DNA of 64,000 nt from Toxorhynchites rutilus septentrionalis. Lineage: Eukaryota; Arthropoda; Insecta; Diptera; Culicidae. How positions within the stretch are numbered: the first letter of the stretch is position 1; each line of letters starts with the position of its first letter. The stretch covers positions 302,261,455 to 302,325,454 of the forward strand of contig NC_073746.1 in NCBI RefSeq assembly GCF_029784135.1, in the 5' to 3' direction. Made by a program: the position numbers and the translations under genes. This document shows, piece by piece, positions 1,841 through 54,180 of this stretch. The notes beneath the pieces are model-generated. The model did not search any database, had not been told where the DNA came from, and worked only from the letters and a program-made list of their open reading frames with translations.

Positions 1841-3241
1841 CAATGATTTGACTAATACAATACAGTACAGGTCGGACTCGATTACATACAGACTCGATTA
1901 TATGTGATTCGATTATATACAATTTTGGACTCGATTATATACAGTTTGGAATTTTTTTTTGTATTTCAAATGCTTATTTCATGAAGAAATGTAACCTTTC
2001 AACGTTGAGGTGAAGTTTAAGTGGCTATTACATGTACAGTGGGGTAAAAATCGTGATTTTTGAAGTATTGTTGAACTTCCACCAGGAATTGTTTATATCG
2101 ATATTGCAGCCAAACTAAGAAAGATAGAAGTTGTGCGTCAAAGAACAAATTGTGGAGCGGTTAAAGAACTTTATTTTAACAATCTAGTTTCATATCAATT
2201 TCTAGGATAAAATAATTGATAACACATTAAAAAAATTTAACTTTTAAGTGTTTCACTTCCAAAATGTTATTAAAATTCACTAATTGAGTTGTTCCACTAC
2301 TATATCCGGTACTAAATTTTCACATCTTTCAAATGAAAGCATCAGAATCGACTTCCGTAGCGTACTTTTTAATGTAGAGCTAGTTTGAGGCAACAGAGTC
2401 CGAAACAAAAAAAAAGTTCTATAACCCTGTCATTGTTGAAATTCGAACATATGCGTAGGAGGATTTTTTTCATCAAATATGATCGTCTATCACCTCCTGA
2501 GAGAATCTGGATAATTTTTTTTCTTCATGTGAGAAAGGTGTTTTCTGACTTTAAGGGGATGAATCAAAAATCAAATTCCTCTTTTTTTGACGTAGGACTA
2601 CGTCTAACCGGAAGATATAGGGGGTGAAATGGAAATTTAGGCACTGAACAAGTAGGAAAAAATGCAAGATTTGGAACGCTTATAACTCGAGCATTTCTCA
2701 ATAGATCGCAAAGGTTTTTGCATCAATTGATAGGAAATATATCTACGCATCTATCATAACGAATAACATTTCATTTTTCTTGAGATAAATAATTGAATAA
2801 TTGTGAAATATCAAGCATTGTCCAAATGCACTATGTGCCCATTTTTGATTGGTCCATTTTGTGCTCCTCAAATCGAACCGACCAAAACGGGCAACCAGAG
2901 CAGCAGCGAAATAGAATGAAGCACGATTGGAAATGAAAAAGAAAAAATATGAACGAAAAATTGGTCGCAGTCTCACACATGCGTAATTCGCGAGCCAGCC
3001 AGTCAGCTTAAAAATCCAGGGCCATTAAACCTTTCAAAAAAGAGTTTAGGAAATACAGTTCAATGCTTTCTAAAACATTATCCAAAATAATAATAAAACA
3101 CAAATTGATGATTTCATAATTTGTTTGCCAGGATCTGATGAGTTTGTGAATTTGGCAGTTGTTCTGAGCTTATTGATAGTTGGGGACTTTCCTGATTATT
3201 CAATTTTCACCAATTCTTAAATTGTTTCCAGATTGAAAGTA

Positions 3242-3461
3242 CAGTAATTTACAATTAGTTCGACATTAAGCTAATTGGACGGACATGTAATGCGACTTAT
3301 TTAGTTGGACATTTTTGTAAACATAGAGATCCAAATTATGACCCCACATTGAAAGTCGACACTGTACCACTGTCATCGCAAATGTTCAATTACAGGTTAA
3401 AATCGCCTCCAATGCGACACTGAGTGGCGCTTCGGCACGTCGCATTGAATGTAATTTACTG
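3242..3461. mobile_element. 220-bp MITE, TA duplication
   Basis: CAGTAATTTACA at the left and TGTAATTTACTG at the right are perfect inverted termini flanked by TA (3240-3241 and 3462-3463). A pogo-like non-autonomous element with no coding sequence. Confidence 0.9.
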
Positions 3462-3795
3462 TACAACATGTCACAAAGCTGGATGGGAAGAAATTTTCCA
3501 ACTGTGAAATCTGTGGCGAGTGGCACACGTAATCGCTAAACAGAAAGGTTTAGCCGAACAAGATGGGGATATCGAGAGATAACAAAACAATAAACTCTTT
3601 AGATTGAAGATAATTTTGTGATCCTGAAAAGGACCCTTTTTAGCCTGCATGTGAATCCAACGAGCGAACAAATCGTAATGAATGTATTTTTTTGCCATCG
3701 CTCCCTTTTAACGCACATTCGTTCGTCTCGTTGGACTCGCCCCTCTGGCTGAGTCTGCCGATTTGTCTCTATCCTGTGAGTGTGTACCGCTAGAG

Positions 3796-3803
3796 TATAA
3801 AAC
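3796..3803 (+). promoter_or_regulatory. TATA box upstream of H2A pseudogene
   Basis: TATAAAAC lies about 70 bp before the H2A-like coding start, in the context CTAGAGTATAAA, which is shared with the family B promoter at 5936. It is probably inherited from a histone promoter. Activity is unknown. Confidence 0.6.
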
Positions 3804-3867
3804 ACGCGGACCCCAAAAAAATATCTTATTTTCTTTCAAACCGTAAACCCGTGTGGTTGTACGGCAT

Positions 3868-4310
3868 CGGCATCGTGGACGTAACAAAGGAGGACAAGTT
3901 AAGGGAAAGGCAAAGTCCCACTCGAACCGTGCAGGTGTGCAGTTCCTCGTAGGTGTATCCGCCAGTTGCTCAGCAAGGGTAGCTAGGCCGAGCGCGTTAG
4001 TACCAGTGCACCAGTCCACCTAGCCGGCGTTATATAGTTTCGGCCGCCGAAGTGATCGAGTTTGCTGGTAAAGCTGCTCGCGACGATAAGAAAACCCGCT
4101 GTCAGAACAGAACACATTCGGTTCGGTGGACATCAAGACAACAACAGGCAGGTGCAGCGAGTGGCGAGTGGCAAACACATTCGCAAAACGGCATCAGGTA
4201 GCAGAAGAAAAAAGTTTGTTCTTTATACAAACTGCTTTGGTGGCAAATCCAGAACAAGGCGGCATCGAGGGCGTTCGAAATGGTTTTTTTTTGAAAACCA
4301 CGAGTACTAA
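3868..4310 (+). pseudogene. Histone H2A pseudogene (copy 1)
   Basis: A decayed copy of histone H2A, the nucleosome core protein. The translation shows KGGQVKGKAKSHSNRAG followed by QFLVG, the H2A N-terminal tail and start of its fold. After frame breaks AAEVIEFAGKAARDDKKTR appears, matching the H2A alpha-2/alpha-3 region. A later stretch, QGGIEGVRNGFFLKTTSTK (near 4256-4310), sits where the H2A C-terminal tail would be and is only a loose match. The start codon is lost and several frameshifts and stops are present. It sits in a HINE-like element between a TATA box and a degenerate histone stem-loop. The second copy at 48099 is better preserved at the N-terminus. Confidence 0.85.
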
Positions 4311-4342
4311 GTTTTCTAAATTGGAACCATTCCATAAAACAA

Positions 4343-4358
4343 GGCGCTTTTCAGGGCC
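4343..4358 (+). promoter_or_regulatory. Degenerate histone 3' stem-loop
   Basis: GGCGCTTTTCAGGGCC is the 6-bp stem / 4-nt loop signal of replication-dependent histone mRNAs with one stem mismatch. It is followed after about 15 nt by AAAAAAGAGTTTAGG, resembling the purine-rich histone downstream element that pairs with U7 snRNA. It lies just 3' of the H2A pseudogene. Confidence 0.75.
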
Positions 4359-5064
4359 ATTAAACCTTCCAAAAAAGAGTTTAGGAAATACAGTTCAATG
4401 CTTTCTAAAACAAATGGTCGTGATGGACGTACATGGGGATCAAAGACAATGTAAAGATGTATTCCATGTACGGAGCTAGGTGGTGAGCCTTCATAAAAAA
4501 ACGCAAAAACACAACGCCAAAGGTTCTTTCATTTTTCAGGTAGATAGGTAGATAGGTAGGTATTCACGTAGGAGAAGAAAATAAAACAATATATTTAAAA
4601 TATATATTTACCAAAAGCTGTCCCCTTTGTATAGTCCTACGTCACTCCGGTTATGTCCCCGACATTACCCACCCGTCTTTTTTTAAAAAAAAAACACGAC
4701 AAATACATGCAAAAAAAAACAAATAAAGAAAAAAAAATTGTTTTGACTCGATTATCCGGAGTGAAAAAAAAATCAATACTCCGGATAATCGAGTCCGGCC
4801 TGTATTATGATACTAAAGCTTGATTTGTACATTTAACCAATCCCGAAGTACAACAGTTTTGTGATTTCACATGCTAAATGAATCAAATTTTAATGAACAG
4901 TACGGAGAACGTCATGGGAAAGATTGGCTTCGTCTTCTAGTTGAATTTATTCATTAACCTTACTCAAATAGCAACGAAATAAAGCAATATAAGCTACGTT
5001 TTTGAGTTCTTTATCATGTTTCGATATAACGTACAATTCGATACAACGTACAATTTTGAAAGTA

Positions 5065-5300: not shown

Positions 5301-5935
5301 CGTTCGGCAGGTGGCTCGTTTTTTTTTAGTGGGATCGTGATTTGGCGAAGAAGAAGAAAAATATATTATTGCTGGTTAAGAATTGCCCGGTGTATCCAAA
5401 TGATACTGATTTAAACACTTGTTTTCCGTTCGCTGAATACAACATCAGCACTACAACCAATGGATCAGGGAATAATAAGATCACTTAGAAATTAGAAATA
5501 ATTTTAGAAAGAACCGTATGCTCAAAACGATTATTGCAATTCTGATAGTTTTTTTTTGACGTAGAACTACGTCTTTCATTAAGGGTGCCAAATCAGAAAA
5601 CAGGTCACGTTTTTATGAAATAAAGTTAACGTTAATAACTATTTTTGCCGCGAACGGATTTTAGCGATTTACATACTAAATGAATCGGGAATTCGGTAAG
5701 ATTTGTTTAATATGCTATACATTAGAATCCCCTGGTTTGTAAATGGTTAAAATTCATGAAAACTTTAGGCGTTATCATTTTTCCATACATTTGTTCTGTC
5801 CATTTGTGTGCTTTCCCTAACAGAGCTGTCAATAACGAGCAACTTATCGACGACCAACGAAGGGGAAATCGTAGGATTTGAAGTCGCCGTGAACAATGGA
5901 AAAGTAGAAGAATGAAGGGGAATACTTGCCTAGAG

Positions 5936-5943
5936 TATAAACA
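5936..5943 (+). promoter_or_regulatory. TATA box of family B element
   Basis: TATAAACA with an initiator-like TTTCA at 5965-5969, about 33 nt downstream, is conserved in the other B copies. The Jockey LINE inserted exactly at the predicted initiation site, with the initiator inside its target duplication. Confidence 0.55.
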
Positions 5944-5969
5944 GTGGATCTCGCTGAGGCAAACTTTCA

Positions 5970-7562
5970 AAACCATTTTGGAAAACCGCCAAAATTCTAA
6001 AAAGCAAACCGCGACCCGTTCCTCCACTCAGATCGTTGGATTCGAATTCATCCTTACTTATAACATCTGCCGAAAAGGCGAATGCGCTTGGTCAACATTT
6101 CGTGGATTCTCACAATATTGGTCGCTCCATGGTGAGTCCCCACGAGCCTATCGTCGAGGAGGTCGTGGCTAGTGTCGCTGATACCCCCATCGTTCTCCCC
6201 GAAGAATCCAAAATAACGGCTGATGAGGCGATAGATGCGGTCCGTAACACGAGAAACATGAAGGCTGTCGGGTTCGACAGTACGCTTAACATCGAGTTAA
6301 AAAACTTGAGCGTTGGCTTCTTCGAGCACTTAACTTCTATCTTCAACACATGCTTGGAACTTGGTTACTTCCCGTCTCGCTGGAAGTTAGCCAAAGTAAT
6401 TCCCATACACAAGCCTGGTAAAGACCCTACCAACGCCAAAAGCTATCGCCCCATCAGCCTCTTGTCGTCCATCTCGAAGCTATTTGAAAAGCTGATTCTC
6501 AGCCGTTTGCTGGATTTCGCAAACCAGAACAACATCTTCCTCCGTGAGCAGTTTGGGTTTAGGAAAGGTTATTCCACTCTCCACCAGCTTGCACGAGTCA
6601 CGAACATCATCAGGCGGAACAAGTCCATGTCTAAAATATCTGCCATGGCATTGTTGGACGTCGAAAAGGCGTTTGATAATGTCTGGCACAATGGTCTTGT
6701 GTTCAAGCTACAACGATTCAACTTCCCGATCTTTCTCGTCAAGATAATCGGTAACTATCTATCGGACAGGACTTTTCAGGTCTCTCTGAACAACGTGCTT
6801 TCCGATACGTTCAACGTCATCGCGGGAGTTCCTCAGGGTAGCCTCCTAGGTCCTATCCTGTTCAATATCTTTACTTCGGATGTTCCTCCCCTTCCTGGTG
6901 ATGGTGTGCTGTCGATGTTCGCTGATGACACCGCCATCATCTACAAGGGTCTAGTGATGCGCCCGCTAGTCAGAAGATTACAGAGGGGCCTGAATGTTCT
7001 GTCCGACTACCTAACATCCTGGAAGATTCGCATCAACGCGACGAAGACACGGACCATTTCATTTCCACACTCAAAATCACCACGTCTTGTTCCGCCTGAT
7101 GATATGAACGTCCACCTCAGCAACAATCCCATTAATTGGTCTAGTGAGGTTGTCTACCTTGGTCTCACCCTGGACAGGAACTTGAACTTCGCATCCCATG
7201 TGAGCAATACATCCACGAAGTGTTCCAAACTCATAAAGTCGCTATACCCGCTCATCAACCGAAAATCCACTCTGTCGCTGAGGAACAAGCTTGCGATACA
7301 CAAGCAGATCATCCTGCCGGTAATCGAATATGGTTTGCCAATCTGGGAGGGATGTGCAAATTGCCATCATAAAAGACTACAGATCATCCAGAACAACATC
7401 CTTCGGAAGATCCTGGACAGTCCACCAAGGACCCGAAATACCGAGCTCCACCGCCTATCTGGTCTTCAGGTGCTGGAGGAACGGAAAACACAAATCCTGT
7501 CTAGGTTCAGGGGGTCTTGCCAGCGGTCTCCGCACGCAATAATCCGGGAGCTGGTCCCATAG
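5970..7562 (+). CDS. Jockey-type reverse transcriptase (partial ORF2)
   Basis: Encodes about 530 residues of a LINE reverse transcriptase, open from the insertion point with no stop. Motifs in order: KPFWKTAKIL (linker before RT), SYRPISLLSSISKLFEKLI, FGFRKGYSTLHQL, LLDVEKAFDNVWHNGL (first catalytic Asp), GVPQGSLLGPILFN, MFADDTAII (FADD catalytic box), then the thumb and the typical Jockey C-terminus with VIEYGLPIWEG and LRKILDSPPRTRN. It copies LINE RNA at a nicked chromosomal target. Without the N-terminal endonuclease and promoter this copy cannot be autonomous. The intact catalytic block is known family knowledge combined with direct observation. Recent arrival is inference. Confidence 0.9.
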   Translation, partial: KPFWKTAKILKSKPRPVPPLRSLDSNSSLLITSAEKANALGQHFVDSHNIGRSMVSPHEPIVEEVVASVADTPIVLPEESKITADEAIDAVRNTRNMKAVGFDSTLNIELKNLSVGFFEHLTSIFNTCLELGYFPSRWKLAKVIPIHKPGKDPTNAKSYRPISLLSSISKLFEKLILSRLLDFANQNNIFLREQFGFRKGYSTLHQLARVTNIIRRNKSMSKISAMALLDVEKAFDNVWHNGLVFKLQRFNFPIFLVKIIGNYLSDRTFQVSLNNVLSDTFNVIAGVPQGSLLGPILFNIFTSDVPPLPGDGVLSMFADDTAIIYKGLVMRPLVRRLQRGLNVLSDYLTSWKIRINATKTRTISFPHSKSPRLVPPDDMNVHLSNNPINWSSEVVYLGLTLDRNLNFASHVSNTSTKCSKLIKSLYPLINRKSTLSLRNKLAIHKQIILPVIEYGLPIWEGCANCHHKRLQIIQNNILRKILDSPPRTRNTELHRLSGLQVLEERKTQILSRFRGSCQRSPHAIIRELVP

Positions 7563-7792
7563 TTTTAATTTAGATTATAGTTAGGTAGGTTATAAAATTT
7601 TTCAATTAATAATTGTTATATCCCTCTTTACGGGATCAAATGTAGACTAGATTCACAACCAATGATCTATGCAGAAATTGAAAGCCAAAAATTTACCAAA
7701 GTTGCCGGGCCCCTAAGGCTAAAAAATTGAATTGTAAATCAAATGTGATAAATTTTAAAAGATCCTCAAATAAATAAACTTTAAGCTTTATA
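5970..7792 (+). mobile_element. 5'-truncated Jockey-clade LINE with 13-bp TSD
   Basis: AGGCAAACTTTCA occurs at 5957-5969 and 7793-7805, bracketing the insert. It begins inside ORF2 at the KPFW motif, lacking ORF1 and the endonuclease. After the stop at 7562 a 230-bp 3' UTR ends in an A-rich region. Perfect TSDs and an open reading frame indicate a young insertion. Confidence 0.95.
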
Positions 7793-7960
7793 AGGCAAAC
7801 TTTCATTCGGCATCGGTCTGTTGAGCAATCCAGTTCACTTTGCTTTCGCTACGCTTCGATCTAAGATTGGACCCCACCAGTGGTAATTCAACTTGGATAT
7901 CGTCGTGTGGTTTTTTTGCTTCTTTCCGCGTCATAAATTTGACACTTCGCGTAGTGTGTG

Positions 7961-8389
7961 ATGAGAAGGAAGAAGAGGAAGGCAGGCTCGAGCCCTGCAA
8001 AAAATGAACACATTGCCAGGGGCAATAAAATTTCGAGGCAAGCGTCATCTAATGATGCACGCGATGTTGGTGCAGTGAAAAGCACTCGCACTGAACCAAG
8101 CCTTCGCGAGTGTGACACCACATCGAACAACAGCGAAGTAGGCGATTTCGGCGCGTCGATCGAAAATGTAAACGCCATTACCCAGGCAGCAACCAAAATC
8201 AAGCTTCCCCCGCTGGTGGTGAAGGTGGTCGCTCTTGACAAACTCATCAGCGAATTCGCATCGATGGGTGTTACAGCAGAGTACAAGCTGTGTGGCATAA
8301 CTCAGTCTTTTTCCAAGCAGTTAACATTGTTTGTTTTCCGTCATCATAAAGGCTTCTTTGGAGCCTTTGAGAATGCATCAATGCATTAA
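7961..8389 (+). pseudogene. Gag/ORF1-like fragment carried by element B
   Basis: A reading frame starting MRRKKRKAGSSPAKNEH, basic at its N-terminus, then PPLVVKVVALDKLISEFASM and AEYKLCGI, which resembles the nucleic-acid-binding gag segment of insect LINE ORF1 proteins. After that it runs into unrelated sequence, so it is truncated. The B2 element (16786-17019, -) has the same first 80 or so codons with several amino-acid changes, but lacks the KIKLPPL segment. The LINE origin is an inference. The lysine-rich start could alternatively be a histone-like remnant. Confidence 0.5.
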
Positions 8390-9087
8390 ACTGACGTTAT
8401 GGTGAATCAGGCGTAAAGGTTGTGCGCCAAAAAATTATTTGGGGAAAACCAAACATATTGAATGTCTTACTGGAATGTTATAAGTTATTTGGGTTCGCGT
8501 GCCAGTCGCAAAACTGCTTTCAACTAGGATTGCATTTGCGCTAATATTGATCATAATGAAGCATTGCTACTGTTTTCGAGGTTGTTATTAACAAAAAGAG
8601 TTTATTTCGCTTGTTTAGTCACAAAGAAAGTAGATGTCGTTCTGGGATTTTGTATGTGATTAGATTTCGCTTGCCAGTGACAAAACTTCCTCCACTAAGG
8701 GTGACAGCTGTGCTTCTCTCGAGCATGAGAAAGTAATGGAACTTTTTTCAAGACCAGTAATATTAACAGAAGCGTTTCTTTTCAGAATAGCGCAAAATGA
8801 TAAGAAGGGTTTATATTCCTAGTAGTTTCAAGCCACCGTAGTATCGCTCTGTATGCATGCTATGGCGAACGCTTGTTTGGCGCTTGGTTTGCGTTGTACG
8901 AACGATGCCTAGAGGTGCGATTCCTTTGGGACAATACTATTTCAGAGATTATTCTACTAAGCAGTTGTTTCTAAAATTTCACAGCATTATAGAATAATAT
9001 CCGAAGGTATAAACAAGCGACTTATATAAAATAACAGCGTAGTTCTACGTCAACAATGTGGTCGTATCTTGGACACAACCTCCTATA

Positions 9088-17065: not shown

Positions 17066-18160
17066 ACAGGAAGTGGGTTATATCTATGGTATAACCGCAA
17101 GGGTGACGTAGGACTATCGTTGATTTAGAGATCATTTGTTTGAAGTTGAATCTGAATTCATTCTGAAAGAATGAATATTTGGGGGACTTCGAAAACGAGA
17201 GCGTTACGTTGGAGGCACAAGGTTTTATGCATCCAATATTGTATACGGAAATATCCTACTACTGATGGGGAAGAATAATCTTCAGAAGCTATCCTGTTAA
17301 TTGCGATTGATTGAAAAATCACAAAACCAAATGTATTTGATCACAGTGTTACATGGATAGAAAACATTCAAATAAACTCTTTCACATGAATGTAATTTTA
17401 AATTCCCAGAGGAACTGGCAGGTTATTTTCAGTAACGATTAGATATTTCCACATTTTCCTCGATACTGGAAGCCCACCAGTGGTTAATGCTAACTCGATA
17501 ATTATCTGTTAATAGCACTTGATTGAAACATATTTGGTCACAGTGTTACATGGATAGAAAACATTGGAATAAACTCTTTCACATGAATGTAATTTTAAAT
17601 TCCCAGAGGAACTGGCAGATTATTTTCCGGATCTTTCTCGATGCTGAATGGCATCCAAACGGAAAGAATTCCGCGCGTGTATGTGTGTGTTGTAGCGGCT
17701 GCTTCGAGATCTTCCCGGGGAACCGTTTGTGGCATCACTATCCTCCTGATGGATTCATGTCTGGCCTAAGGTGCACAAACAGGCTCTTGGTGACACCGTT
17801 CATCCGCTCTTTCATGATAAACGAAGAGCTTCACCACAACAGCGACAACATGCTCCAATCGCTGTTCAATTTGAACTGAGTGGATTTCCGAGGGGCGCTC
17901 GCTTATATACCGATTGGTGATTTCAATAGCCTGTTTTGAATGCAATTTTAAGACTATTGAAACAAGTTTACGGATTAAAAAGTAACAAGTATAGAACGCG
18001 TAGACATTTTATCTTTCGAATGAAGTGTTTATCATACCATTTCGTTCAGTTGTTTAGGAGCTATTAACGCTCAAAATCTCGGTCTCCGGCGTAACGCTTT
18101 CGTTTTCGAAACTTTGATTTTACACCCCGGTATAGAAATGAAAGACGTAGTCCTACGTCA
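17066..18160 (-). mobile_element. HINE-like element, family E copy 1
   Basis: Left ACAGGAAGTGGGTTATATC, with a GGTTATA..TATAACC hairpin and GTGACGTAGGACTATCG; right GACGTAGTCCTACGTCA. Both ends abut A-runs and no duplication is visible. It splits element B2, which shows it moved as a discrete unit. Compared with E2 it has an internal duplication of about 190 bp (two copies of ACATGGATAGAAAACATT). It carries a TATA/initiator promoter on the minus strand and a GTGAAAGAGTTTATTT motif like the histone downstream element. The coding cargo is not identifiable. Confidence 0.85.
17902..17909 (-). promoter_or_regulatory. Core promoter in E1 (TATA + Inr)
   Basis: TATATAAG on the minus strand with initiator TCAGTT 32 nt downstream (+1 at 17877). 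Identical spacing is found in E2 and E3. Confidence 0.7.
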
Positions 18161-21401: not shown

Positions 21402-21405
21402 TTAA

Positions 21406-21860: not shown

Positions 21861-21867
21861 TTTATTG

Positions 21868-24921: not shown

Positions 24922-24929
24922 TATAAAAG
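24922..24929 (+). promoter_or_regulatory. TATA box of first D unit
   Basis: TATAAAAG with initiator-like TCATCC about 29 nt downstream. The same context, CACACATACCAAATGATATAA, recurs before the second unit at 27902-27920. Confidence 0.65.
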
Positions 24930-25940: not shown

Positions 25941-25951
25941 AACACGACTTC

Positions 25952-26162: not shown

Positions 26163-26205
26163 ACAACTGCTACATCCGAGTAAAATATGAACAGAGAAAT
26201 CATCC

Positions 26206-32870: not shown

Positions 32871-32887
32871 AAAAAAAAAAATTAAAA

Positions 32888-39302: not shown

Positions 39303-39397
39303 ACAGGAGGGTTGTGTCCGAGACACGACCGCATAGTTGACGTAGGATTCCGTTAGGCTATCTGTTGATTTTGGATATAATGATTTTTTTTTTTTTA

Positions 39398-39745
39398 TCC
39401 AAAATATATATTTTTATCAAGGCTCATATGGCGTTAGCCTCACGGGGCCGGGAGTTCAATACTTTGACAATTTTTCTTATTATCTATGTTAGTAATATGT
39501 AACCGATTACTCGCGGTTGGCTCGAGGTTAGTATTACAAGTGTTTTCGTTATTCGGATGTTGCTGTCTCCAATGCTCTGTACGTGTGCCCGACACGGGAT
39601 ACTTCCTATTGGGATGCAGCTGACCATTAATCAGCAACGCCCCCCTAGTCTGTACCTCATATCTAGCGTGGTGCGTCTTTCTCGACTCGAGGAATCCAGG
39701 ATAGAATGGTCACTAACCGGCATAATATAATGATAATGATAATGA
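39398..39745. repeat. Interspersed repeat ending in (AATGAT)n
   Basis: ATATATATTTTTATCAAGGC, GGCGTTAGCCTCACGGGG .. CGACTCGAGGAATCCAGG .. then ATAATGATAATGATAATGAT. It lies between the D2 end and its stem-loop. Looks like a retroelement tail. Class not assigned. Confidence 0.45.
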
Positions 39746-39751
39746 TTTGGT

Positions 39752-39767
39752 GGCCCTGAAAAGGGCC
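39752..39767 (-). promoter_or_regulatory. Canonical histone 3' stem-loop in D2
   Basis: On the minus strand: CAAAAC-GGCCCTTTTCAGGGCC-ACCAAA. Stem, loop and both flanks fit the consensus bound by SLBP in replication-dependent histone mRNAs. Confidence 0.9.
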
Positions 39768-39911
39768 GTTTTGTTTGGTTATTCACTCTACCAGTGTTTA
39801 CCGAGTGATGATGACAGAAGGATGGTAAACAGCCGTTGGATGGTGCGTGTCAGATAAAAGATACCGAAGTGAAACGAGATATGATGAAAACCGCCCTCTG
39901 TGATTCTAAAC

Positions 39912-41571
39912 CAGCGGTAATCAACCTTTTTTTCAGATGGGCCACAAACACGTGGTAGTCATGGTGTCGCGGGCCGCTTGTGTCTAAGACGCGACCGCAT
40001 TGTTAACGTAGGAATTATGAATGCCGAAAAACAAACATTATAGTAATTCAAGAATGAAACTTTTTAGCACAAATATTTGGTAGCACTGAGGGCCGTTGAA
40101 TGAATGCTCTCAGTGAGGGAGAGGTTTTATTGTTTGCGAATGTTTCGCAAACTTCCAATTTCCACAGAAGAACACAGCACTCACTGCTGAAAATAGCTTT
40201 TTCACACCCGGCTTCAAATGCGTTGCACTTTGATGACATTTTAAACCCTGAAACAATGCTCGAATTCACGAAAAATTAATTGATTGATCGGAATGTCACC
40301 ATTAAATCATTCACGATTTATTAGTCATCTTGCTAGTGACCATTTGGCAGCGACAGCGGCAGCATTCCAAATGTTCTTTGTCAAGGCCGAATGTTTTATT
40401 TAGTCTTCCAAATTAGCCTTTTTTAAGGCTAGAGGCGTATTAACTGAGGAAGTCTGAGAATCTGAGAGAGTCTCTATAATTCAAAACATCATCATCATTA
40501 CACCAATAAATCCGAACACGCTTCCAAATTTACAGAATCTCTCTTCCACCATAAATTCAACAATTTGTACGTGTGATTCAATTATACGCAACAATCTCCA
40601 CATATCTGTGTGAAAACTCGCACCATGTTGGTTTTCATACTGTTATGTGAAGATTGGTTATATTTTAAATATTTTTTATGCTTAACTTGTGCAAGCTCTG
40701 CACGTTCGTTCAACATGGTAGCAATACAGAAACTGGAACCAGCCAGGGTAAGCACGATATTTATACTACTTTCACGGCCATCCGACGAGATGCATCATCT
40801 ACTGAGTTCTTATGACTTCACCAAAACTTATAGATTTTTGTGATTTCATTGTTGGCTTTTAAAGCTGTGAAAAATTAGGTCAATAATTAACAAACATCAC
40901 TTATACACTTTTTATCTTTTGAAAGTAATTGTAATACCACTTCTCTCAACCGGCAAAGAGATGTTAACGCTCGAATCCTTGCTCCCCTAATGTTACATAT
41001 CGTTTTCGAAATTTTCAACTTGCACTCCAGTACAGATGCTAGAATGATGTAGTGCAAAAATAAAGAAACACTCTCCACCAGACGGCGTGAAAATCAACAC
41101 AGCGTCTCCACCGAACATACATCACTATGTTGATACCAGTCTTTCATTTGTCCTTTCTATCGAACAAATCAGCTTTGTCTGAAATCAGTATTGAGAAAGA
41201 CTGCGGTATGCAAGTTCGAATTATAGAGGCTTTAAAACTTCAATTTATTCGGCTTTAACTTTGAAAAAAAAGCCTATTTGGAAAACTAAACTAAACTCTG
41301 AATCATGAATGTTGTGAAATCGCGATTAGCTTGTTTATACTCGATAAATTAAAAAACGCTGCATTTTCTATTTCTATTTCATAAAACCGTGTTCTGTTTT
41401 CTGATTTTGCACTATTTCTGAAAGATATAGCCCTACGTAAAAAAATAGGTGATGATTTCATAGGTTTTCGTTATTGTTACACATCAAAAATAGTTCAAAA
41501 TAAAGTAACACCAGATGGGCCAACCGGAAAAGCCTGCCGGGCCACATGTGGCCGCAGGTTGAGTATAGCTG
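39912..41571. mobile_element. hAT-type non-autonomous element
   Basis: CAGCGGTAATCAACCT at the left and the complement at the right (CAGCTATACTCAACCT) are typical hAT termini. The 8-bp flanks TTCTAAAC and TCCTAGAC match at six positions, a decayed 8-bp duplication. The interior has no transposase; it includes an old E-like HINE (39974-41440). Confidence 0.8.
39974..41440 (-). mobile_element. Old E-like HINE inside the hAT element
   Basis: Left GCTTGTGTCTAAGACGCGACC with GTTAACGTAGGA. Right GATATAGCCCTACGTAA. AAAGAGATGTTAACGCTCG .. ATCGTTTTCGAAATTTTC near 40960-41010 aligns loosely with TTAACGCTCAAAATC .. TCGTTTTCGAAACTTTG of the E family. Highly diverged. Confidence 0.5.
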
Positions 41572-42164
41572 TCCTAGACGAAATGTTTCCCGTGATATGT
41601 ATGAATTAAATAAAGAAAAAAAAACTCACCAATGTAATATAAGATAATTACCGATACCGAACACAATTATCAAAATTCTCATCAGTGAAAACATGTTACA
41701 TATTTAGAATGGAAAAGGTAATTTTCTTTTATAATTTTTACTCTATGAGTGTTTATTCAACCCAACGCGAAATTTAATTGGACTAACAACACCTAATACT
41801 ATATGTAGAGCATATGGGAAATCACTTTTTTGATATTTCTTCACTTTTCCAATTATTCACGCCGTATAAATTTTCCTTGGGTGAAAATGAACACAACAAA
41901 ACAGACAACTTAAATCAAACGACCTGTTCACGAGCAGGAACACACCTTGGATTTTATTTATGAAAATTGAAATCAATCGTTTCATTTATCAAGTCATTTT
42001 TAACACAACTGCTACCATATACAATTTTACACTTACACTTGTGCTGAATTTTTCACAATACACGATCGGTCATTGATATGAAATTTCACGAAGAAACTAA
42101 CATTAAAGTTCTAAATTTAAATTTTATTTACTAGAATTAATCGTATCGCTCACCTTACTTGCGA

Positions 42165-42350
42165 TACAAAAATGCCCCCGACTTGCATATATTTGCCATG
42201 CCGTTTTCCCCCAGGCAGCTTGGTATTGATGTCTCTGTTAGGGAATACATTTCGGTAGGAACAAAAGCTCCCCCTACTTTCATGTATTTGCATTGCCGAT
42301 TTCCCCTAGGCAGCTTGGTTTTGATGTCTCTGTTAGGGACCCGCCGCATG
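42165..42350. repeat. 95-bp minisatellite, two units
   Basis: Unit with GCCGATTTCCCC, AGGCAGCTTGG, TGTCTCTGTTAGGG and AACAAAAGCTCCCCCTAC. Unit starts at 42200 and 42295 are 95 bp apart. The same unit is at 45600-46095 and 52400-52565. Confidence 0.85.
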
Positions 42351-42626
42351 TGTCGGTAATTTCGACCAATCACAAATGGGTATTTCCGTTAGGATAGGGG
42401 TTGAGATTTTTCAATTGTTCGATAGTTAGTTTCGTGACATATATTATATTCTTCAATATAAAAAATTGTTATGAAGTGCCGAAATCGATTGACGCTAAAA
42501 TTTCATCAATCCATCATTAAATGACTGAGCAATAAGCATTTAAAATTGGACAATTTTCACGATGTACTCGATTTTCGATTTTCAATTTGTACCCCAATGT
42601 GTTCCCGAAAGACGTAATCCTACGTC

Positions 42627-45086
42627 AAAACTTGAATAAACGCTATGTTATATTTTGGGAATGTATTATTTCATCAATATTTCAGTACTGTTAGTATTTG
42701 AACGATATCATAGTTGAATTATAAAGCCTTATTCCTGTATACACAAAATGAAATGAAGTGTATCCGCGATGACAACGATACGGTGCCGACATCTGGATAC
42801 GAAATTAGTTTTTAACAAGCCTTACTACTCAGTCCGAAGGCACTTTTAAATTGCTAAAATCTGAATGAAAATTTTTACTTGGCGTTATTTATTTACTTGA
42901 AGCACGTCTTTCTTCCCCTAACTTGACCTATTTTCTATACACTTTCCGATATTCTCACTAAAACTTATCATTATAATATAAAATTATCTTCAAATACAAT
43001 TTTTGTACGAGATTATTTTACCAAATGAAGAAAGCAAAGTTTTCCATTCACATTCACATTCACACAAATTTGATACGGAAAATTTAATTTTTATTCATAA
43101 TTTCTATTTGAAAAGGGTTCATTCTACCTGAAAACCCATAATTTTCTTTAACTCGTGAAACGAAATTTAATGGCGCGTCGTTCATTTCGATTTCATCGTG
43201 AAGTGTAAACGGTAATGCCCATAATCTCTTGATAAATAAAATGAACTATGAATTTAATTCATGTATTTCAACATATACTCCTACTATCAAATCTACGTTT
43301 TCTAGTTTTCTTTATCTCTTCACATTTAATTTTTTTGCATACCAAAATAACAGGAAAGTACTTATTGTTTGAAATATGTGACATTCAGTTGAAGAATTAA
43401 CACAAAAAAATGGTGCAGCTCAGAAAATACATGATACGAAGAACACATGTTTTTCATGGGAAAAAAATCTTTTATAACATTTGGCAACCTTTACATCTCG
43501 CTTTCCTGTTATTTAGCACTTGGTCGACGAAAATGCAGAAAGAAGAGTAAGAAGCCAGTTGTCACGTCTTGTCGTAGGATTTAATGAATAACGAATTATT
43601 TCAATTGAAATAAGTTGATTGTTTATCAAGTAACAACCTTCAAAGTCATGCTCATTAGATAGAGAATAGAATCATTCATCTTTTTTGTGGATCGTGACAG
43701 AGAAAAGTTATTGACTGAAACGTGAGCATGGGTCAATATAGGAAAATTTACAGAATTTTGAAAATGAAGAAAAGTTGTTCGAATAGAGTTATCGAAGTTA
43801 TTCGTGTGTGTTTCATGAATATAACTTTCTTAGGGAATCACCCAGCGTAGCTGTTTTAATAGAAATACATCTTACCTCGTGCTCGTAGATGATGGAGGTC
43901 AAGTCGAGTGACAACGGTTGCTGGGCAATGGTTTATGCGGTGTAGGACTTTTACACCGCCGTTATATAGACACAGCTAAGCGTACGCCTGCGGTGATTAT
44001 ATGTTTAAGAGAACACATGTTCAAATCGGTCATACTCTTATTGGGCATCACACAATTCGATAGAGAAATATTTAACCTATCTTCCAGCCACAATTTTATT
44101 AATCGAAAAAGGGTATGAGAAAATTTATAAGCCAAGTTATATGGAAGAAATTGATTATGTTAAAGAAAATTGAAAAAAGTTATTTGAAAGGACCCAAAAC
44201 ACATTCTCGAGATAGTACTTATTCGATATAGAATATTTTTATCTATCTTTAGCAAAATTTCCATTGGTCGGAAAAGGGTCTAAGAAAAGTTATAGCCCAA
44301 AACCTATACAACTTGTATGAGGGAAATTAATTAATTTAAAGAAAATTTAAAAAAGTTATTCCAAAGGACCCAAAACACATTCTTGAGATAATACTCATTG
44401 GATAGAGAATACTTTTATCCATCTTTAGCCAAATTTTCGTTGGCCGGAAAAGAGTCTGAGACAAGGTATGGGCCAAAATGTGAGTAGTAGGAGGGAAATT
44501 AATAAATTTATCGAAAATGGAAATAGAATTTTTTTGACACTCGAAAAAAAAAATTAAGGAACAGAGTGCTGAGTCAAAATTTTTGGGCGATTTCTGAAAT
44601 GCTTTAAAATCGTGAAATATCAACGCATGAAGAAGGGATATAAATCTCTTTAAAGCATAATTTACATGGATTTACACTTAATATTTTAAAGAGAAATTTG
44701 TATTTTGATGTTTGTAGATGTAGTGGATAAAAATATCAGGAAGAAATGAAAAATCGATTTCTTTCTGTTTTTTCAAAGATAGCAAGCCTATTAACGTTAT
44801 CAACTATCTTTCATTTAATTTCTATAACGTTGTTGTAGACCATTCAGTACTGAAATACTATTGCATGAACGAAAAATTTCGAATTCGTATTTGATAATAA
44901 ATAGTTCAATAAATAATCATCGAAAGACAGTTTTGAAAACTCTAATAAATTCTATATACCCAGGATTTTTTTACGCAAGGGATAGAATTTTGTTATAATT
45001 TGTCGCGGTACACCATAGTAGATGTACTTTGAGTATTTTCTCAAATTTTCATTTCCAAGCCGATTGAGAATGGGAAAAAAAAGAAA
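42627..45086. other. Unassigned AT-rich DNA with repeat arms
   Basis: About 43560-43715 is inverted relative to 49500-49632. About 44180-44520 contains two units of roughly 190 bp (AGGACCCAAAACACATTCT) that recur inverted at 47180-47530. No gene seen. Confidence 0.5.
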
Positions 45087-46372
45087 AAATTAGTGGGTTA
45101 TATCTATGATATAACCGCAAGGTTCACGTGGAACTACCTTAGCTTAGCAATCATTCGTTTGTATTGATTAAATTCTTGATTGAATGAAACAGTTTCCAAA
45201 TTCAATTGAGTTCAATATATTTGCTCTGTGAGTGAAAAAAATGAACAAATGCCGTGTAAAGTCAATTCATTTATTGTGATTGATTGTTCTTCGTTACAAG
45301 TAAATTTAATGACGGATCTTTTACGTTTGGTATGATGACTAGAACAAAATATATGTACGGAAGAATTATCAAACGTTTGATGAACCAGCCTAAGGCTGAA
45401 AATCTTTCCAATAAAGACAAAAAAAATTATCAAACGATTATTTTATTTTACATTTCCCTCTGAAGTTTACATCCCAAAAGTGTTCATACTTCTCGAATCT
45501 CGAATTTGCTTGAAACTGGGAAGTTCATTCGCTTCTAGTGGCTGCACGATTTTCCCAGGTTCCTAAGTTTAGAAGATCATGTTAGGACAGACATATTCCA
45601 CTCTGCACAAAGGCAAGCGAGGACAAAAGTACTCGCAGTTTGCATTTATTTGCAGAGCCGATTTCCCCAGAAACCTCGGTTTTGAAGTCTGTGTTAGGGA
45701 AACACATTTCAATCGGAACAAAAATACCCCCGATTTGTATGAATTCGCAATGCCGATTTCCCCACGCTTCATGGATTTGAAGTCTGTGTTAGGGAAACAC
45801 ATTCCAGTCGGAACAAAAATACCCCCGATATCTCTATTAGGGAACACATTTCGGTGGGAACAAAAGCTCCCCCTACTGTGTTCTTTTTCTTCTTTTTGGC
45901 TTTAAGAGGGTTTAAACTTTTCAGTTCACTCGCCTCTAGGCTCTTTCGTGTGCTTGCAATGCCGATTTCGCTGCTTGGTTTTAAAGTCTGTGTTAGGGAA
46001 CATTTTTCGATGAGAACAAAAGTCCCCCTACTTTCATGTATTTGCAATGCCGATTTCCCCAAGGCTGCTTGGTTTTGATGGCTGTGTTAGGGAAACCGTA
46101 AATCGGGCCAATCAAAACGATGCAGTTAGGGCGTTTAGATAACGCCTAATATTTTACAGTTATTCAATTGTTTATCTAATGAAAAACAACATTTTGTTAG
46201 TTGCGATAGATGCGTAGAAATATTCCCTATCAAGTGATGCAAACATCTCTCCTATCCAGTACGAAATGTTCGAGCAATAAGCATTCGAAATCTTTCATTT
46301 TTTCCTGCATGTTCTGTGTTTAGGTTTTCATTTTACCATCCATATATTCCGGTTAGACGTAGTCCCACGTCA
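45087..46372 (-). mobile_element. HINE-like element F (E-like 3' end, A-like 5' end)
   Basis: The left end has GTGGGTTATATCTATGATATAACCGCA (E-type hairpin, shown in part) followed by a diverged TTCACGTGGAACTACC. The right end is GTTAGACGTAGTCCCACGTCA with the A-type neighbourhood (TTGCGATAGATGCGTAG). It contains the largest array of 95-bp repeats. No histone sequence recognised. It may be a recombinant between families. Confidence 0.6.
45600..46095. repeat. 95-bp minisatellite array, about 5 units
   Basis: Unit starts at about 45657 and 45752 are 95 bp apart. Later units are shortened and interrupted by a short retroposed tail (45875-45940, complement of the 57-bp insertion at 25884). Confidence 0.85.
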
Positions 46373-47579: not shown

Positions 47580-47998
47580 TGACGTAGGACTACGTCTAAC
47601 CGGAAGATATAGGGGGTGAAATGGAAATCTAGGCACTGAACAAGTAGGAAAAAATGCAAGATTTGGAACGCTTATAACTCGAGCATTTCTCAATAGATCG
47701 CAAAGGTTTTTGCATCAATTGATAGGAAATATATCTACGCATCTATCATAACGAATAACATTTCATTTTTCTTGAGATGAATAATTGAATAATTGTGAAA
47801 TATCAAGCATTGTCAAAATGCACCATGTGCCCATTTTTGATTGGTCCATTTTGTGCTCCTCAAATCGTACCGACCAAAACGGGCAACCAGAGCAGCAGCG
47901 AAATAGAATGAAGCACGATTGGAAAGGAAAAAGAAAAAAATGAACGAAACATTGGTCGCAGTCTCACACATGCGTAATTCTCGAGCCAGCCAGTCAGC

Positions 47999-48006
47999 TT
48001 AAAAAT
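47999..48006 (+). promoter_or_regulatory. TATA-like box of H2A copy 2
   Basis: TTAAAAAT with initiator TCATTC whose A (48031) is 32 nt downstream. The coding start is 68 bp further on, an arrangement normal for an insect histone gene. Confidence 0.55.
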
Positions 48007-48098
48007 CCTCGCTCCGCTGCCGTAACAATCATTCTCGTTCAAACCGTACACCACATCGGTTCGCATCACAACACATCAACAAACCAACCCAAGCAGCC

Positions 48099-48306
48099 AT
48101 GTCCGGACATGGTAAAGGAGGAAAAGTGAAGGGAAAAGCAAAATCCCGCTCGAACCGTGTTGATCTGGAGTTCCCCGCAAGGGTAACTAGACCGAGCGCG
48201 TTAGTACCAGTGCACCGGTCCACCTAGCAGGCGTTATATAGTATCGGCCGCCGAAGTGATCGAGTTAGCTGGCAAAGCTGCTCGCGACGATAAGAAAACC
48301 CGCATT
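48099..48306 (+). pseudogene. Histone H2A pseudogene (copy 2)
   Basis: The ATG at 48099 opens MSGHGKGGKVKGKAKSRSNR, the H2A N-terminus with one change (R to H). An internal deletion then removes the QFPVGRI region. PSALVPVH.. and, after a frameshift, AAEVIELAGKAARDDKKTRI follow (H2A helix 2 and beyond). Truncated by the E3 insertion site about 100 bp later. Clear homology, not functional. Confidence 0.93.
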
Positions 48307-48413
48307 CGGAACAGAACACATTCGGTTCGGTGGACATCAAGACAACAGGCAGTTGCAGCGAGTGGCGAGTGGCAAACGCAATCGAAAAACGGCAGCTGGT
48401 AGCAGAAGAAAAA

Positions 48414-49492
48414 ACAGGAAGTGGGTTATATCTATGGTATAACCGCAAGGGTGACGTAGGACTATCGTTGATTTAGAGATCATTTGTATGAAGTTGAATC
48501 TGAATTCATTCTGAATGAATGAATATTTGGAGAACTTCGAAAACGAGAGCGTTACGTTGGAGGCACAAGGTTTTATGCATCCAATATTGGATACGGAAAT
48601 ATCCTACTGATGGGGAAGAATAATCTTCAGAAGCTATCCTGTTGATTGCGATTGATTGAAAAATCACAAAACCTAATGTATTTGGTCACAGTGTTACATG
48701 GATAGAAAACATTAAAATAAACTCTTTCATATGAATGTAATTTTAAATTCACAGAGGAACTGGCAGATTATTTTCAGTAACGATTAGATATTTCCACATT
48801 TTCCTCGATACTGGAAGCCCACCAGTGGTTAATGCTAACTCGATAACCATCTGTTAATAGCACTTGATTGAAACATATTTGGTCACAGTGTTACATGGAT
48901 AGAAAACATTCAAATAAACTCTTTCACATGAATGTATTTTTAAGTTCCTAGAGGAACTGGCAGATTATTTTCCGGATCTTTCTCGATCCAAACGGAAAGA
49001 ATTCCGTGCGTGTATGTGTGTGTGTAGCGGCTGCTTCGAGATCTTCCCGGGGAACCGTTTGTAGCATCACTCTCCTCCTGATGGATTCCCTTCTGGCCTA
49101 AGGTGCACAAACAGGCTTTTGGTGACACCGTTCATCCGCGCTTTCATGATAAATGAAGAGCTTCACCACAACAGCGACAACATGCTCCAATCGCTGTTCA
49201 ATTAGAACTGAGTGGATTTCCGAGCGGCGCTCGCTTATATACCGATTGGTGATTTCAATAGCCTATTTTGAAAGCAAATTTAAGACTATTGAAACAAGTT
49301 TTTGGATCAGAAAGTAACAAGTATAGAACGCGTAGACATTTTATCTTTCGAATGAAGTGTTTATCATACCATTTCGTTCAGTTGTTTAGGAGCTATTAAC
49401 ACTCAAAATCTCGGTCTCCGGCGTAACGCTTTCGTTTTCGAAACTTTGATTTTACACCCCGGTATAGAAATGAAAGACGTAGTCCTACATCA
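48414..49492 (-). mobile_element. HINE-like element, family E copy 3
   Basis: ACAGGAAGTGGGTTATATC to GACGTAGTCCTACATCA (one substitution in the palindrome), 1,079 bp. It carries the same 190-bp duplication as E1. Inserted at the A-run that ends the A2 fragment. Confidence 0.88.
49234..49241 (-). promoter_or_regulatory. Core promoter in E3 (TATA + Inr)
   Basis: TATATAAG with TCAGTT, +1 at 49209, 32 nt downstream, as in E1 and E2. Confidence 0.7.
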
Positions 49493-51145: not shown

Positions 51146-51941
51146 GGCAAACTACTCATTCTTTGTGTGGACACCGACTGGACAACTAGTGATCCCCGAT
51201 TTTTGAAATTAAGCGTTCATCAGCTAATCGAATAGTTTTCAGCAGTTTGTTATTCGATACGATTAATCGCCCCAAATAATCGATTAATCGTCACACTGAG
51301 AGAAATAATTAGTTAGACTAATATTTCTCATTTGCTAGGAAACCATTTGGAATCAAAAAAGTGTTCATACCGCCTGAAAATCATTTATTATCTTTTACGC
51401 TCTCCTAAAGTCGTAAACGAAGCTTAATTCGCGTTGACGACATTGAGCTTTGGTGGATCACACCATTGAGGGATGCCGAATCCTTCGCCTGAAGGAGATT
51501 TCGATAGCGATAGCTTAGGAATTGCACTCTGAAAAAAAAACTGTTTGGAACACTTTAACGGTAGAATAAAAGCTTTTTGAATAATTTTTAACACTGGTTT
51601 ATTAAGCGATGTCGCTTGGTTAAACGTAGGAATTTGAATGAAAATATATTGGAAGGGAATTTCTGTGTGCACCTATTTAGTTGTATGCGCTCGTTTCTTA
51701 TGCATTGCATCGGTATATACTGTTTACGTTTCGGTATATTCGGGGCTGGATGTGTTCGTGCCATACACCACACACTATGTTCTGAAAGCAAGGGAGTGGG
51801 TCGGATGGGAATAGGATTGGATAGTTAGAAGGGGTATTACTTTATGTTCCCACTTGTTCCTCGTTCGCACTGTCGGTCGCGAACAAGCATCAAAGATAAT
51901 GATTGATTTTCAGGATAAAACTGCAACGGCCGTACGTTTTT
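51146..51941. other. Unassigned DNA
   Basis: CGATTAATCG motifs at 51230-51290 are a scrap of the AT-rich element (26370, 55140). The rest (51300-51941) shows no gene or repeat I can name. Confidence 0.4.
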
Positions 51942-52578
51942 TGACGTAGAACTACGTCTTTCAGGAAGGGTGCCAAATCAGAAAACAGGTCACGTTTTTA
52001 TGAAATAAAGTTAACGTTAATAACTATTTTCACTGTGAACGAATTCTTATGATCTGCATACCAATCGAATCGGAAATTCTCTAAAATTTGTTTGATATGC
52101 TATACATTACAATTCGCTAATCTCTAAATGGTTTAAATTTATGAAAACTGGAAGAACTTCCATTCTTCCCATACATTTATTCTGCCGATTTGTGTGCTAA
52201 CTCTACCCGTATTTCGAATGCTTATAACTCGAATATTTCTCAACAGATCGGAAAGATGTTTGCATCAATTGATAGGAATTATTTCTACTCGTCTATCACA
52301 ATTAATAAAATATTGTTTTTCATGAGATGAACAATTGAATAACTGTAAAATGTCAAGCGTTATTTAAAAGCCCTAACTGCCAAGTTTTAATTGGCCCAAT
52401 TTACGGTTTCCTCAACACAGACTTCAGATTCGATGTACCTGTGGAAATCCGCTCTACAAATATACACGCAAGACGTGGGTATTTTTGTTCCCACCGAGCT
52501 GTGTTTCCCTAACACGGACTTCAAAATTAATGTGTCTGAGGAAATTCGCTTTGCAAACACATGCAAGTCGGGGTATTT
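51942..52578 (+). mobile_element. Mosaic HINE-like element (B-type start, A-type middle)
   Basis: TGACGTAGAACTACGTCTTTC and 240 bp of B left sequence, then from about 52200 ACGCTTATAACTCGAATATT .. TGCATCAATTGATAGGAA as in family A, then two 95-bp repeat units (inverted) to 52565. It ends exactly where B5 begins. Confidence 0.65.
52400..52565. repeat. 95-bp minisatellite, two inverted units
   Basis: CCCTAACACGGACTTCAAAA and GGGTATTTTTGTTCCCACCG are the complements of the unit at 45657-45850. Confidence 0.8.
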
Positions 52579-54180
52579 TGACGTAGAAGTACGTCTTACA
52601 TTAAGGGTGCCAAAGCAGAGAACAGGTCACGTTTTTATGAAATAAAGTTAACGTTAATAACTATTTTTGCCGCGAACAGATTTTGGCGATTTACATACCA
52701 AACGAATCGGAAATTCCCTAAGATTTGTTCGATAAGCGTTTCCAGTTTCGTATACATTTGTTCTGCTGATTTGTGTGCTTTCCCGAACAAAACTGACAAT
52801 AACGAGCAACGAAGGGGGAATCATAAGATATAATCTCCGTGAACAGAAGAAAGGAAAAAGAATGAAAGGGTATATTTACGTAGAGTATAAACAGTGGATC
52901 TCGCTGCGGCAAACTGCGGCAGTCTTGTTCTGCTTTCAAAGCAATGAACATCACTTGTTCTTCCTTGTTTTGCGTCATCACATGCCTTAGTTTCGGGTTG
53001 AGCTGTGAACGCGACCAAGATATTCATTCGCTGATGTCTCTGGCATTGCAATTATTGCATCAAACTGACGCCATTACATTAAGGTTCTAAGTTACACAAT
53101 TGTGTGGGGAATCATCAAGCTAGGCTACCGTTGGCTCACCAAGAAAATAAATGTTCTGAAAATTGATCTGTGATTTAGTTTCGCATGGCGGTAGCAAAAC
53201 TCTCTCCACCAAGGATGGTAACTTAGCTGATCTAGACCGGCAATATTAACAGAAAGGGCTTCTGTTAAAAAATAGCGCAAAACGGAAATAAGTGTGTATA
53301 TTTAGTTGCTTTAAGCAATCGATATATGGATATTTGTGTGCTACGTGCGTGCTTCATAACCCGTACGTAAAAATAGTGCATCTGCGCTACTCTGAAACCC
53401 CTTTTGTATCTGCTCCCGTGTGCATTGGCCCTGTAACGATGCAACAATCGCCTAATTTTTTTATGCTATGAATGACGATTGTTTGGTGTTGCAAATTATG
53501 CAGTCGTAAGGATAAATATAAACAAGGAGGGGAGATAGCGGGAGGGAAATATTATTAGTATTAGTAATGAATCTCTGCTGGGGCAAATATTCAGCCTTTT
53601 TCCAAGCAGTTAACATTGTTTGTTTTCTGTCATCAATGCATTGAACTAACGCTATGGTGAAGCAGGTGTTAAGGTTGTGCACCAACAAATTTTTTGGGGA
53701 TTACCAAGTTATTCAATAAGTTTTATTAGGTTATCAATTTATTTCGGCTCGCGTGCCAGTCGCAAAACTGCTTTCAACTAGGATTGAACTAGTAATACTC
53801 TGTTCGAGGTTATGGAGATTAACAGATACAGTTTATTTCGTTTATTTAGTCACCAAGAAAGTAAATGTCGTTCTGGAATTTTGTATGTGATTTGGTTTCG
53901 CTTGCTACTAGCAAAACTTTCTCCACTAAGGATGACAGCTGCGCTTATTTCGAGCATTTATTGTTCTGCGAGCACACAAATGAGTCATCAAACAATTATC
54001 GTCAAATGATTCTACAATAAAAAAAAACATTTCAGGGCGACCAAACTAGTAGAATGGTTATTTCAAACCCTTCGTAGCATTATAAAATAATATCTGCAAT
54101 TATAAACAAGCGACTTGAATCAAACCACAGCATAGTTCTACGTCAACAATGCGGTCGTGTCTTGAACACAACTTTCTATA
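52579..54180 (+). mobile_element. HINE-like element, family B copy 5, complete
   Basis: TGACGTAGAAGTACGTCTTAC to CATAGTTCTACGTCA, GCGGTCGTGTC, TTGAACACAAC (hairpin) and TTTCTATA at a T-run; 1.6 kb. It has the TATA segment AGAGTATAAACAGTGGATC at about 52882 but no gag-like frame. Shows what an uninterrupted B element looks like. Confidence 0.8.

Follow-up and report, generated by a model that had tools for sequence, protein, structure and literature searches.

Non-autonomous Helentron-type elements (HINEs) are described as having palindromic subterminal inverted repeats of 12–15 bp, a 3′ palindrome, a T-rich and unmodified target site, and a Rep/helicase/endonuclease partner (Thomas, Vadnagara & Pritham, 2014; PMC4067079). 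The sections of the same report on histone fragments describe Helentron-Cq-32A of the mosquito Culex quinquefasciatus, with eight copies, in which broken pieces of H4 and of H15, a linker histone, are found. A stretch of 64,000 nucleotides from the mosquito Toxorhynchites rutilus septentrionalis (contig NC_073746.1 of assembly GCF_029784135.1, positions 302,261,455–302,325,454 of the forward strand), hereafter the window, contains elements of this design, which are very probably HINEs that captured DNA of the host histone cluster and spread it as broken histone-like transcription units. Besides TATA regions, the captured DNA contains the signal for histone 3′ processing, and the genes concerned are H2A, H4, H1, and an H3-like 3′ end.

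With Helentron-Cq-32A, HINE-Cq-32A.1, and HINE-Cq-31A.1, as far as the sections devoted to them describe, the elements of the window share palindromic subterminal inverted repeats, a 3′ stem-loop, and T-rich insertion, and the likeness extends to the tandem repeats of some non-autonomous copies and to the stops and frameshifts within the H4 and H15 fragments (PMC4067079). The relevant sections mention neither H2A nor a promoter, 3′ stem-loop, or downstream element of histone type, and “H2A”, “promoter”, and “polyadenyl” do not occur in the main text, whereas the multi-copy family of the present mosquito, a member of another subfamily, has H2A twice; the comparison is with the published description of the Culex element. 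DINE-1/INE-1 of Drosophila and the HINEs of mites are alike in their subterminal inverted repeats, 3′ palindrome, and TT or T-rich target, but no captured gene fragments were found in the mite elements according to the passages that treat them (PMC4067079). The ATon elements of Aedes aegypti are also abundant non-autonomous mosquito DNA elements, but ATon-I and ATon-II, 112 and 144 bp long, have true terminal inverted repeats and an AT target, and no histone cargo is mentioned in the parts of the report that cover them (PMC3422177). In the PMC literature, to which the search was confined, PMC4067079 was the only paper among the matches listed that concerned the capture of histones by Helentrons, and its one case, in Culex, is described through the coding fragments. 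A preliminary description of the window, made from its sequence, had known of no such description; given Helentron-Cq-32A with its H4 and linker-histone fragments, this kind of capture is already known, and the new parts are H2A, the regulatory and processing ends, and a multi-copy histone family and its scale.

The elements of the window, among them members of families A to D, are recognized by their ends. A pattern scan for the 5′ palindrome GACGTAG[AG]A[CT]TACGTC, with at most three mismatches, gave 13 copies, each after a run of T's, and 11 matching 3′ ends were located, eight with a pattern and three (A1, A3, and one near 40005) with separate scans, in keeping with the dozen or more elements of shared end design that had been announced.

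Plus strand: 5′ palindromes at 2589, 5558, 24562, 47581, 51943, 52580, and 63321
Minus strand: 5′ palindromes at 18159, 29842, 33784, 42626, 46371, and 49491
2589..4677, plus: A1, family A, HINE-like, rearranged; 5′ palindrome 2589–2604, 3′ inverted repeat 4632–4643, T-run flanks
5558..9082, plus: C1 with a reverse transcriptase insert of the type without long terminal repeats (non-LTR); ends, open reading frame with RVT_1 at 6036–7562
3′ end near 16320, minus: C2, which hosts B1
17066..18159, minus: B1, nested in C2; ends, filled against empty site in C1
24562..28714, plus: D1, with two histone units; 5′ palindrome 24562, 3′ subterminal repeat 28684, hairpin
32884..33784, minus: B2; ends, flanks matching insert-free repeats
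39301..42626, minus: D2, stem-loop near the 3′ end; ends, D-type 5′ module 86% identical to that of D1
45080..46371, minus: A3, A-type 5′ end and internal repeats
47581..48407, plus: A2, cut off where B3 begins; 97.9% identical to A1 over 429 bp
48408..49491, minus: B3, adjoining A2; ends
51943..54165, plus: C3/C4, with two 5′ ends (51943, 52580) and one 3′ end

Each 3′ end consists of an inverted copy of the 5′ repeat, a hairpin, and mostly T's, which are missing at C1 and at the 3′ end near 40005. The subterminal repeats agree within families: family C uses GACGTAGAACTACGTC at the 5′ end and its inverse with TTC at the 3′ end, the D repeats are marked by a D-specific T, and A and B both use GACGTAGGACTA. 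Counted by eye, the exact inverted match between the end repeats amounts to 12 bp in A and B, 14 in C, 11 in D2, and 10 in D1; in the aligned 3′ ends, a palindrome between the 3′ repeat and the 3′ terminus is also visible by eye (GGTTATA...TATAACC in B, GTGTC...GACAC in D2). A1 and 12 family A copies from elsewhere in the genome, picked from the fetched loci for having both ends, sit in T-runs with no duplication seen beyond the T's, although the 5′ end of one of them, L018, is damaged. Among ten elements tested for empty sites two were informative (the other eight were uninformative), and both had inserted within A/T runs: B1 is nested in C2 at a T-run that is unfilled in C1, and the flanks of B2 match two insert-free repeat copies at 73% and 67%. 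Thus, the subterminal inverted repeats, the 3′ palindrome, and the T-rich insertion without target-site modification of HINEs are all found here. Canonical Helitrons begin with TC, end with CTRR, and insert between A and T, and this class is excluded by the family A ends, T-run/GACGTAGG and CACCCGTC/T-run; the ATon class is excluded as well, as both its 15–17 bp terminal inverted repeats and its AT target are absent. The end patterns and a stem-loop pattern had no matches in viral contigs (three scans), nor had the end patterns in genome contigs (two scans).

The histone homology was detected with tblastn, using five histone proteins as queries, and with the Rfam histone stem-loop model (Histone3, cut-off 34 bits), which within the window is exceeded by the stem-loop of D2 only.

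3592..3635, minus: A1 opposite-strand stem-loop and AAAGAGTTT; Rfam 3640–3594, 18.0 bits in a short-stretch search, below cut-off
3796..3801, plus: TATAAA of the H2A unit of A1
3877..4099, plus: broken H2A of A1, residues 3–77, with in-frame stops and frame changes; tblastn E 2e-14
4343..4382, plus: A1 stem-loop with one mismatched pair, and AAAGAGTTT; Rfam 4338–4383, 24.0 bits, below cut-off
24922..24927, plus: TATAAA of the first D1 unit
25948..26066, plus: broken N-terminal half of H4, D1 unit a; tblastn E 1e-4 (25991–26065), blastn to host H4 E 8e-16
26065..26275, plus: H1 tail, 3′ untranslated region, H1-type stem-loop, downstream element, and about 26 bases more, D1; host H1 3′ region E 1e-10
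26206..26249, plus: D1 stem-loop AGTCCT-TTTC-AGGACT and AAAGAGTTT; Rfam 26201–26246, 19.0 bits in a short-stretch search, below cut-off
27916..27921, plus: TATAAA of the second D1 unit
28194..28315, plus: broken N-terminal half of H4, D1 unit b; tblastn E 0.002 (28205–28315), blastn to host H4 E 3e-13
28584..28622, plus: D1 stem-loop GGCCCT-TTTC-AGGGCC and AAAGAGTTT, just before the D1 3′ end; Rfam 28579–28623, 31.0 bits, below cut-off
39727..39772, minus: D2 histone stem-loop; Rfam 35.9 bits, above cut-off
48099..48306, plus: broken H2A of A2, residues 1–78, with ATG and 5′ untranslated region, aligned to host H2A; tblastn E 3e-9

None of the histone copies in the elements has an intact reading frame. 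The best tblastn matches to H2B, H3, and H1 in the window (E 0.40, 1.6, and 0.33) are at chance level; the H1 tail of D1 lies in a second frame, which follows the first H4 piece and reads ...KPKMPKPRKAAAASEKTTGAKK and then a stop. The downstream element AAAGAGTTT occurs in 12 exact copies in the window, against 1.55 expected from 20 first-order Markov simulations, three of them in A1, five in family B, two in D1, one in C1, and one elsewhere, and the strict stem-loop with AAAGAGTTT at fixed spacing was found four times, against a mean of 0.05 and a maximum of 2 in 300 second-order simulations. A host-like stem-loop with a U7-type downstream element is present in both D1 units, while this 3′ signal is incomplete in A1, where one pair is mismatched, and in D2, which has no downstream element. 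What the preliminary description had said of TATA boxes and histone stem-loops in A and D is borne out for family A and D1, where a downstream element is found as well, but its claim of histone gene pieces in these families holds for H2A in A1 and A2 and for H4–H1 in D1, with no H4 or H1 coding seen in D2 or in the five D-type matches fetched elsewhere. The orientation it had called constant is that of the H2A and H4–H1 units, not that of the opposite-strand stem-loop with AAAGAGTTT in A1 (3635–3592) and in other family A copies; for family B, its promoter and downstream element are confirmed as TATATA and AAAGAGTTT, without host-histone homology (B1) or a stem-loop (B3).

The source of this DNA is visible in the host genome, where 11 stem-loop matches of 41.3 bits are grouped on contigs C2 (near 101.7 Mb), C113, and C375. 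Stretches were fetched at four of these 11 matches (L009–L012). L009 and L011 match H2A(−), H2B(+), H3(−), H4(+), and H1(−) without stops, L010 has H2B, H3, H4, and H1 but lacks H2A, and in L012 the H2A match ends at residue 75; the five complete host frames were read in L011 only. This replication-dependent quintet resembles the units of the elements in its TATA boxes, stem-loops, and AAAGAGT-type downstream elements, but differs from them in its complete proteins and its clustering. Its stems are CGTCCT/AGGACG in H2A, GGCCCT/AGGGCC in H2B, H3, and H4, and AGTCCT/AGGACT with loop TCTC in H1, and AAAGAGT or AAGAGTT follows four of the five stem-loops, H2B being the exception within the stretch seen.

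In unit a of D1 the alignment with host H4 starts 25 bases upstream of the ATG and reaches about residue 45, and it is followed by an alignment with host H1 through its tail, stop, 3′ untranslated region, stem-loop, downstream element, and about 26 bases further. The D1 stem at 26206 is identical to the host H1 stem, with loop TTTC instead of TCTC. The 3′ region of unit b is closest to that of host H3 (E 6e-9), H2A and H4 being weaker matches. In histone genes, the sequence past the stem-loop, including the downstream element, is removed from the mature mRNA by cleavage. Because the homology continues past this cleavage site, the histone sequence of D1 is, judged by alignment, captured from DNA. 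As host H4 and H1 face each other, their joining in one orientation would have needed a strand switch or an inversion. Two double changes between the D1 stem-loops were considered as compensatory changes indicating selection on the stem, and this was rejected because the two stems have different parent genes, one being that of host H1 and the other H3-like.

Family A extends these observations beyond the window. Its order, compared with L027 as reference, is 5′ end, H2A-1, stem-loop 1, opposite-strand stem-loop, H2A-2, stem-loop 2, and 3′ end, over about 2.5 kb. Read by eye, the whole order is present in nine of the 15 7-kb loci L014–L028 (L017–L021, L024, and L026–L028), the copies in the other six being partial or rearranged. 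It recurs on the three chromosomes C1–C3, with pieces longer than 1 kb that are 88–97% identical, and long matches to the reference were found in the window and in 22 of 24 non-cluster loci, the reference included, L002 and L007 having none. A1 matches the reference in rearranged order, its plus-strand stem-loop being number 1, which is mismatched in its common form in the family. The likeness between H2A-1 and H2A-2 is about 72%, and both have the same stop (TAT to TAG), 1-nt deletion, and truncation after about residue 78, which indicates that a single unit was captured and, broken by then, became duplicated within the element; since coding lesions are common to the copies, among them A1 and A2, the histone genes were dead before the family spread. 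Upstream of the ATG no clear similarity to the host H2A promoter is seen, so the origin of the family A promoter is deduced from its position and TATA box. The opposite-strand stem-loop of A1 recurs in family A copies elsewhere; among host sequences it is closest to the H4 3′ region (E 4e-4), and by the host gene order it may derive from a divergent H2B gene that was captured and of which just the end is left. In the window, B3 (48405) lies exactly at an A-run inside A2, and as A2 does not resume beyond it, the 3′ half of A2 has been lost. Between two family A copies in L013 (6027–6970), two damaged H3 copies stand head to head with stem-loops GGCCCT/AGGGCT and AGCCCT/AGGGCT at their outer ends, not clearly within an element of known ends.

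A covariance search of the window's own assembly (902.6 Mb) with the Rfam model gave at least 75 histone stem-loop matches at E 0.001 or better, 66 of them above the cut-off; this is a lower bound, as 75 of 199,592 first-look candidates were scored, and the window's own 35.9-bit match is outside the list. In 14 control genomes, the family was matched in one, below the cut-off. Among the fetched non-cluster matches 30 of 31 lie in Helentron-type elements, 29 with a 3′ end found by pattern and one (L026) by eye; the downstream 3′ end is within about 200 bases in 27, at 252 in L034, and at 1109 in L027, behind an insert. By type, 24 belong to family A, all with H2A sequence, and five are D-type (L030–L034); L032 has a family A copy with H2A directly after the D-type copy. 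The remaining two are L002, without histone coding but with a 3′ module 70% like that of family A, and L007. In the latter (1350–1550), a TATA box stands about 150 bases upstream of a perfect GGTTCT/AGAACC histone stem-loop, with neither histone coding nor element ends within 3 kb, and its sequence suggests a possible short transcript unit or a decayed element. The condition named earlier as refuting, namely elements elsewhere without histone sequence, does not hold for family A, in loci selected by stem-loop and not from an unbiased genome consensus, and is half true of D, where five of five copies have the stem-loop but no H4 or H1 coding. As 30 of 31 fetched non-cluster matches are transposon-borne, annotators of histone genes and RNA motifs should be warned.

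The proposal that rolling-circle elements took histone-cluster units with TATA boxes and 3′ signals and spread them is supported by the Helentron/HINE-like ends, the host homology, and the dispersed copies. Presumably, Rep/helicase/endonuclease supplied in trans moves the HINEs. Genomic segments of the H2A–H2B–H3–H4–H1 cluster, including promoter regions, 3′ stem-loop, and downstream element, would have been copied into an ancestral element, in the space flanked by its 5′ and 3′ modules; family A then underwent a tandem duplication of the captured unit and an amplification of the whole element. The reading frames were broken prior to amplification, with the proteins lost and the unit boundaries kept, so the cargo is not a histone protein. 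It is a transcription unit of histone type, most likely a passenger, from which transcripts may still be started and ended, and any transcription or benefit of the captured units is presumptive.

Several observations weigh against capture and spread by HINEs. In the eight open reading frames of the window that were scanned with Pfam, no Rep/helicase/endonuclease domain and no autonomous partner was found. A histone origin of family B is not established: B1, like C1 (one copy per family tested), has no homology to host histones, and B3 has no Rfam histone stem-loop at E 10. H4–H1 was seen in D1 only, and D2 (tblastn with the five histones) and the 3-kb stretches of the five D-type matches have no H4 or H1 coding; A3 likewise gave no histone sequence with tblastn. 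The fetched matches are 31 of 64 non-cluster matches, in 30 loci, and, being ascertained by stem-loop score, they overstate how often elements carry the stem-loop and are unable to show that it is always kept.

Other origins were weighed as well. Chance insertion beside histone pseudogenes, with the histone sequence outside the mobile unit, would fit the broken state of the fragments and the collecting of pseudogenes in repeat-rich regions, but dispersed family A copies on three chromosomes have the same H2A units at the same internal positions with exact element ends around them, D1 being the single element known with H4–H1, and this explanation is extremely unlikely. Histone genes have no introns, so the coding sequence alone cannot discriminate between mRNA and DNA as the source; reverse-transcribed histone mRNA is nevertheless hardly credible, as the homology of D1 to host DNA runs on beyond the stem-loop and takes in the downstream element, which mature mRNA lacks, while for family A this argument rests on the AAAGAGT after the stem-loops. 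That the elements are miniature inverted-repeat transposable elements with terminal inverted repeats, moved by a cut-and-paste transposase, would agree with their inverted subterminal repeats, but the ends are asymmetric, with an extra hairpin on the 3′ side, the terminal bases are unlike, and there is no duplication beyond the T's, which makes it very improbable.

A different question is whether the captured signals work, which is improbable. A working 3′ module of stem-loop and downstream element, with S-phase transcription from a captured promoter, cutting by SLBP and U7, and transposition timed to DNA replication, is unlikely, although the 3′ end is closely preceded by a stem-loop and host-type AAAGAGT in family A and in those D-type copies that have no histone coding, and by a stem-loop and AAAGAAT in L002, and perfect stems are kept in D1 unit b and D2. 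In family A, the two stem-loops not used for finding the copies diverge, together with their downstream elements, by 0.0087 against an average of 0.0245 (one-sided p 0.029 from random windows), a weak and uncorrected value, and the loci with the intact loop were found by that loop. On the other side, all three D copies met only as neighbours (L024, L027, and the first copy of L033) have damaged stem-loops, D2 has lost its downstream element, stem-loop 1 of family A is commonly mismatched, and A3, B, and C in the window have no stem-loop. Stem-loop conservation was therefore rejected as functional proof, p 0.029 being suggestive beside three damaged incidental copies out of three, and constant orientation was rejected as functional evidence as well, given the non-independence of the copies and the stem-loop that family A has on the opposite strand. 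That the superfamily adopted the histone 3′-end signal as its own 3′ module, making S-phase RNA without poly(A) and discarding the protein part, would be a long shot; if true, many dispersed copies could compete with real histone mRNA for SLBP and U7. These elements are a natural system for testing whether RNA ends of the S-phase, non-polyadenylated type can serve a transposon.

Family C has a 143-residue open reading frame common to C1 (7958–8386) and C2 (17019–16657), without a Pfam match at E 0.001. Its one database relative is a Toxorhynchites protein with a MADF domain (PF10545), 84% identical over 34% of the frame, and for this reason family C may carry a piece of a different host gene. 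Apart from the elements, the window contains a long array of 8-base tandem repeats at 21740–22450, one frame of which reads (FICLFVYL)n, and an exon with CUT and homeodomain on the minus strand at 61780–63144, with relatives named “One cut domain family member” and “homeobox protein cut-like”. A broken Tc1/mariner-like transposase lies on the plus strand at 14408–15213, and a 95% identical copy of it adjoins the family A copy in L001.

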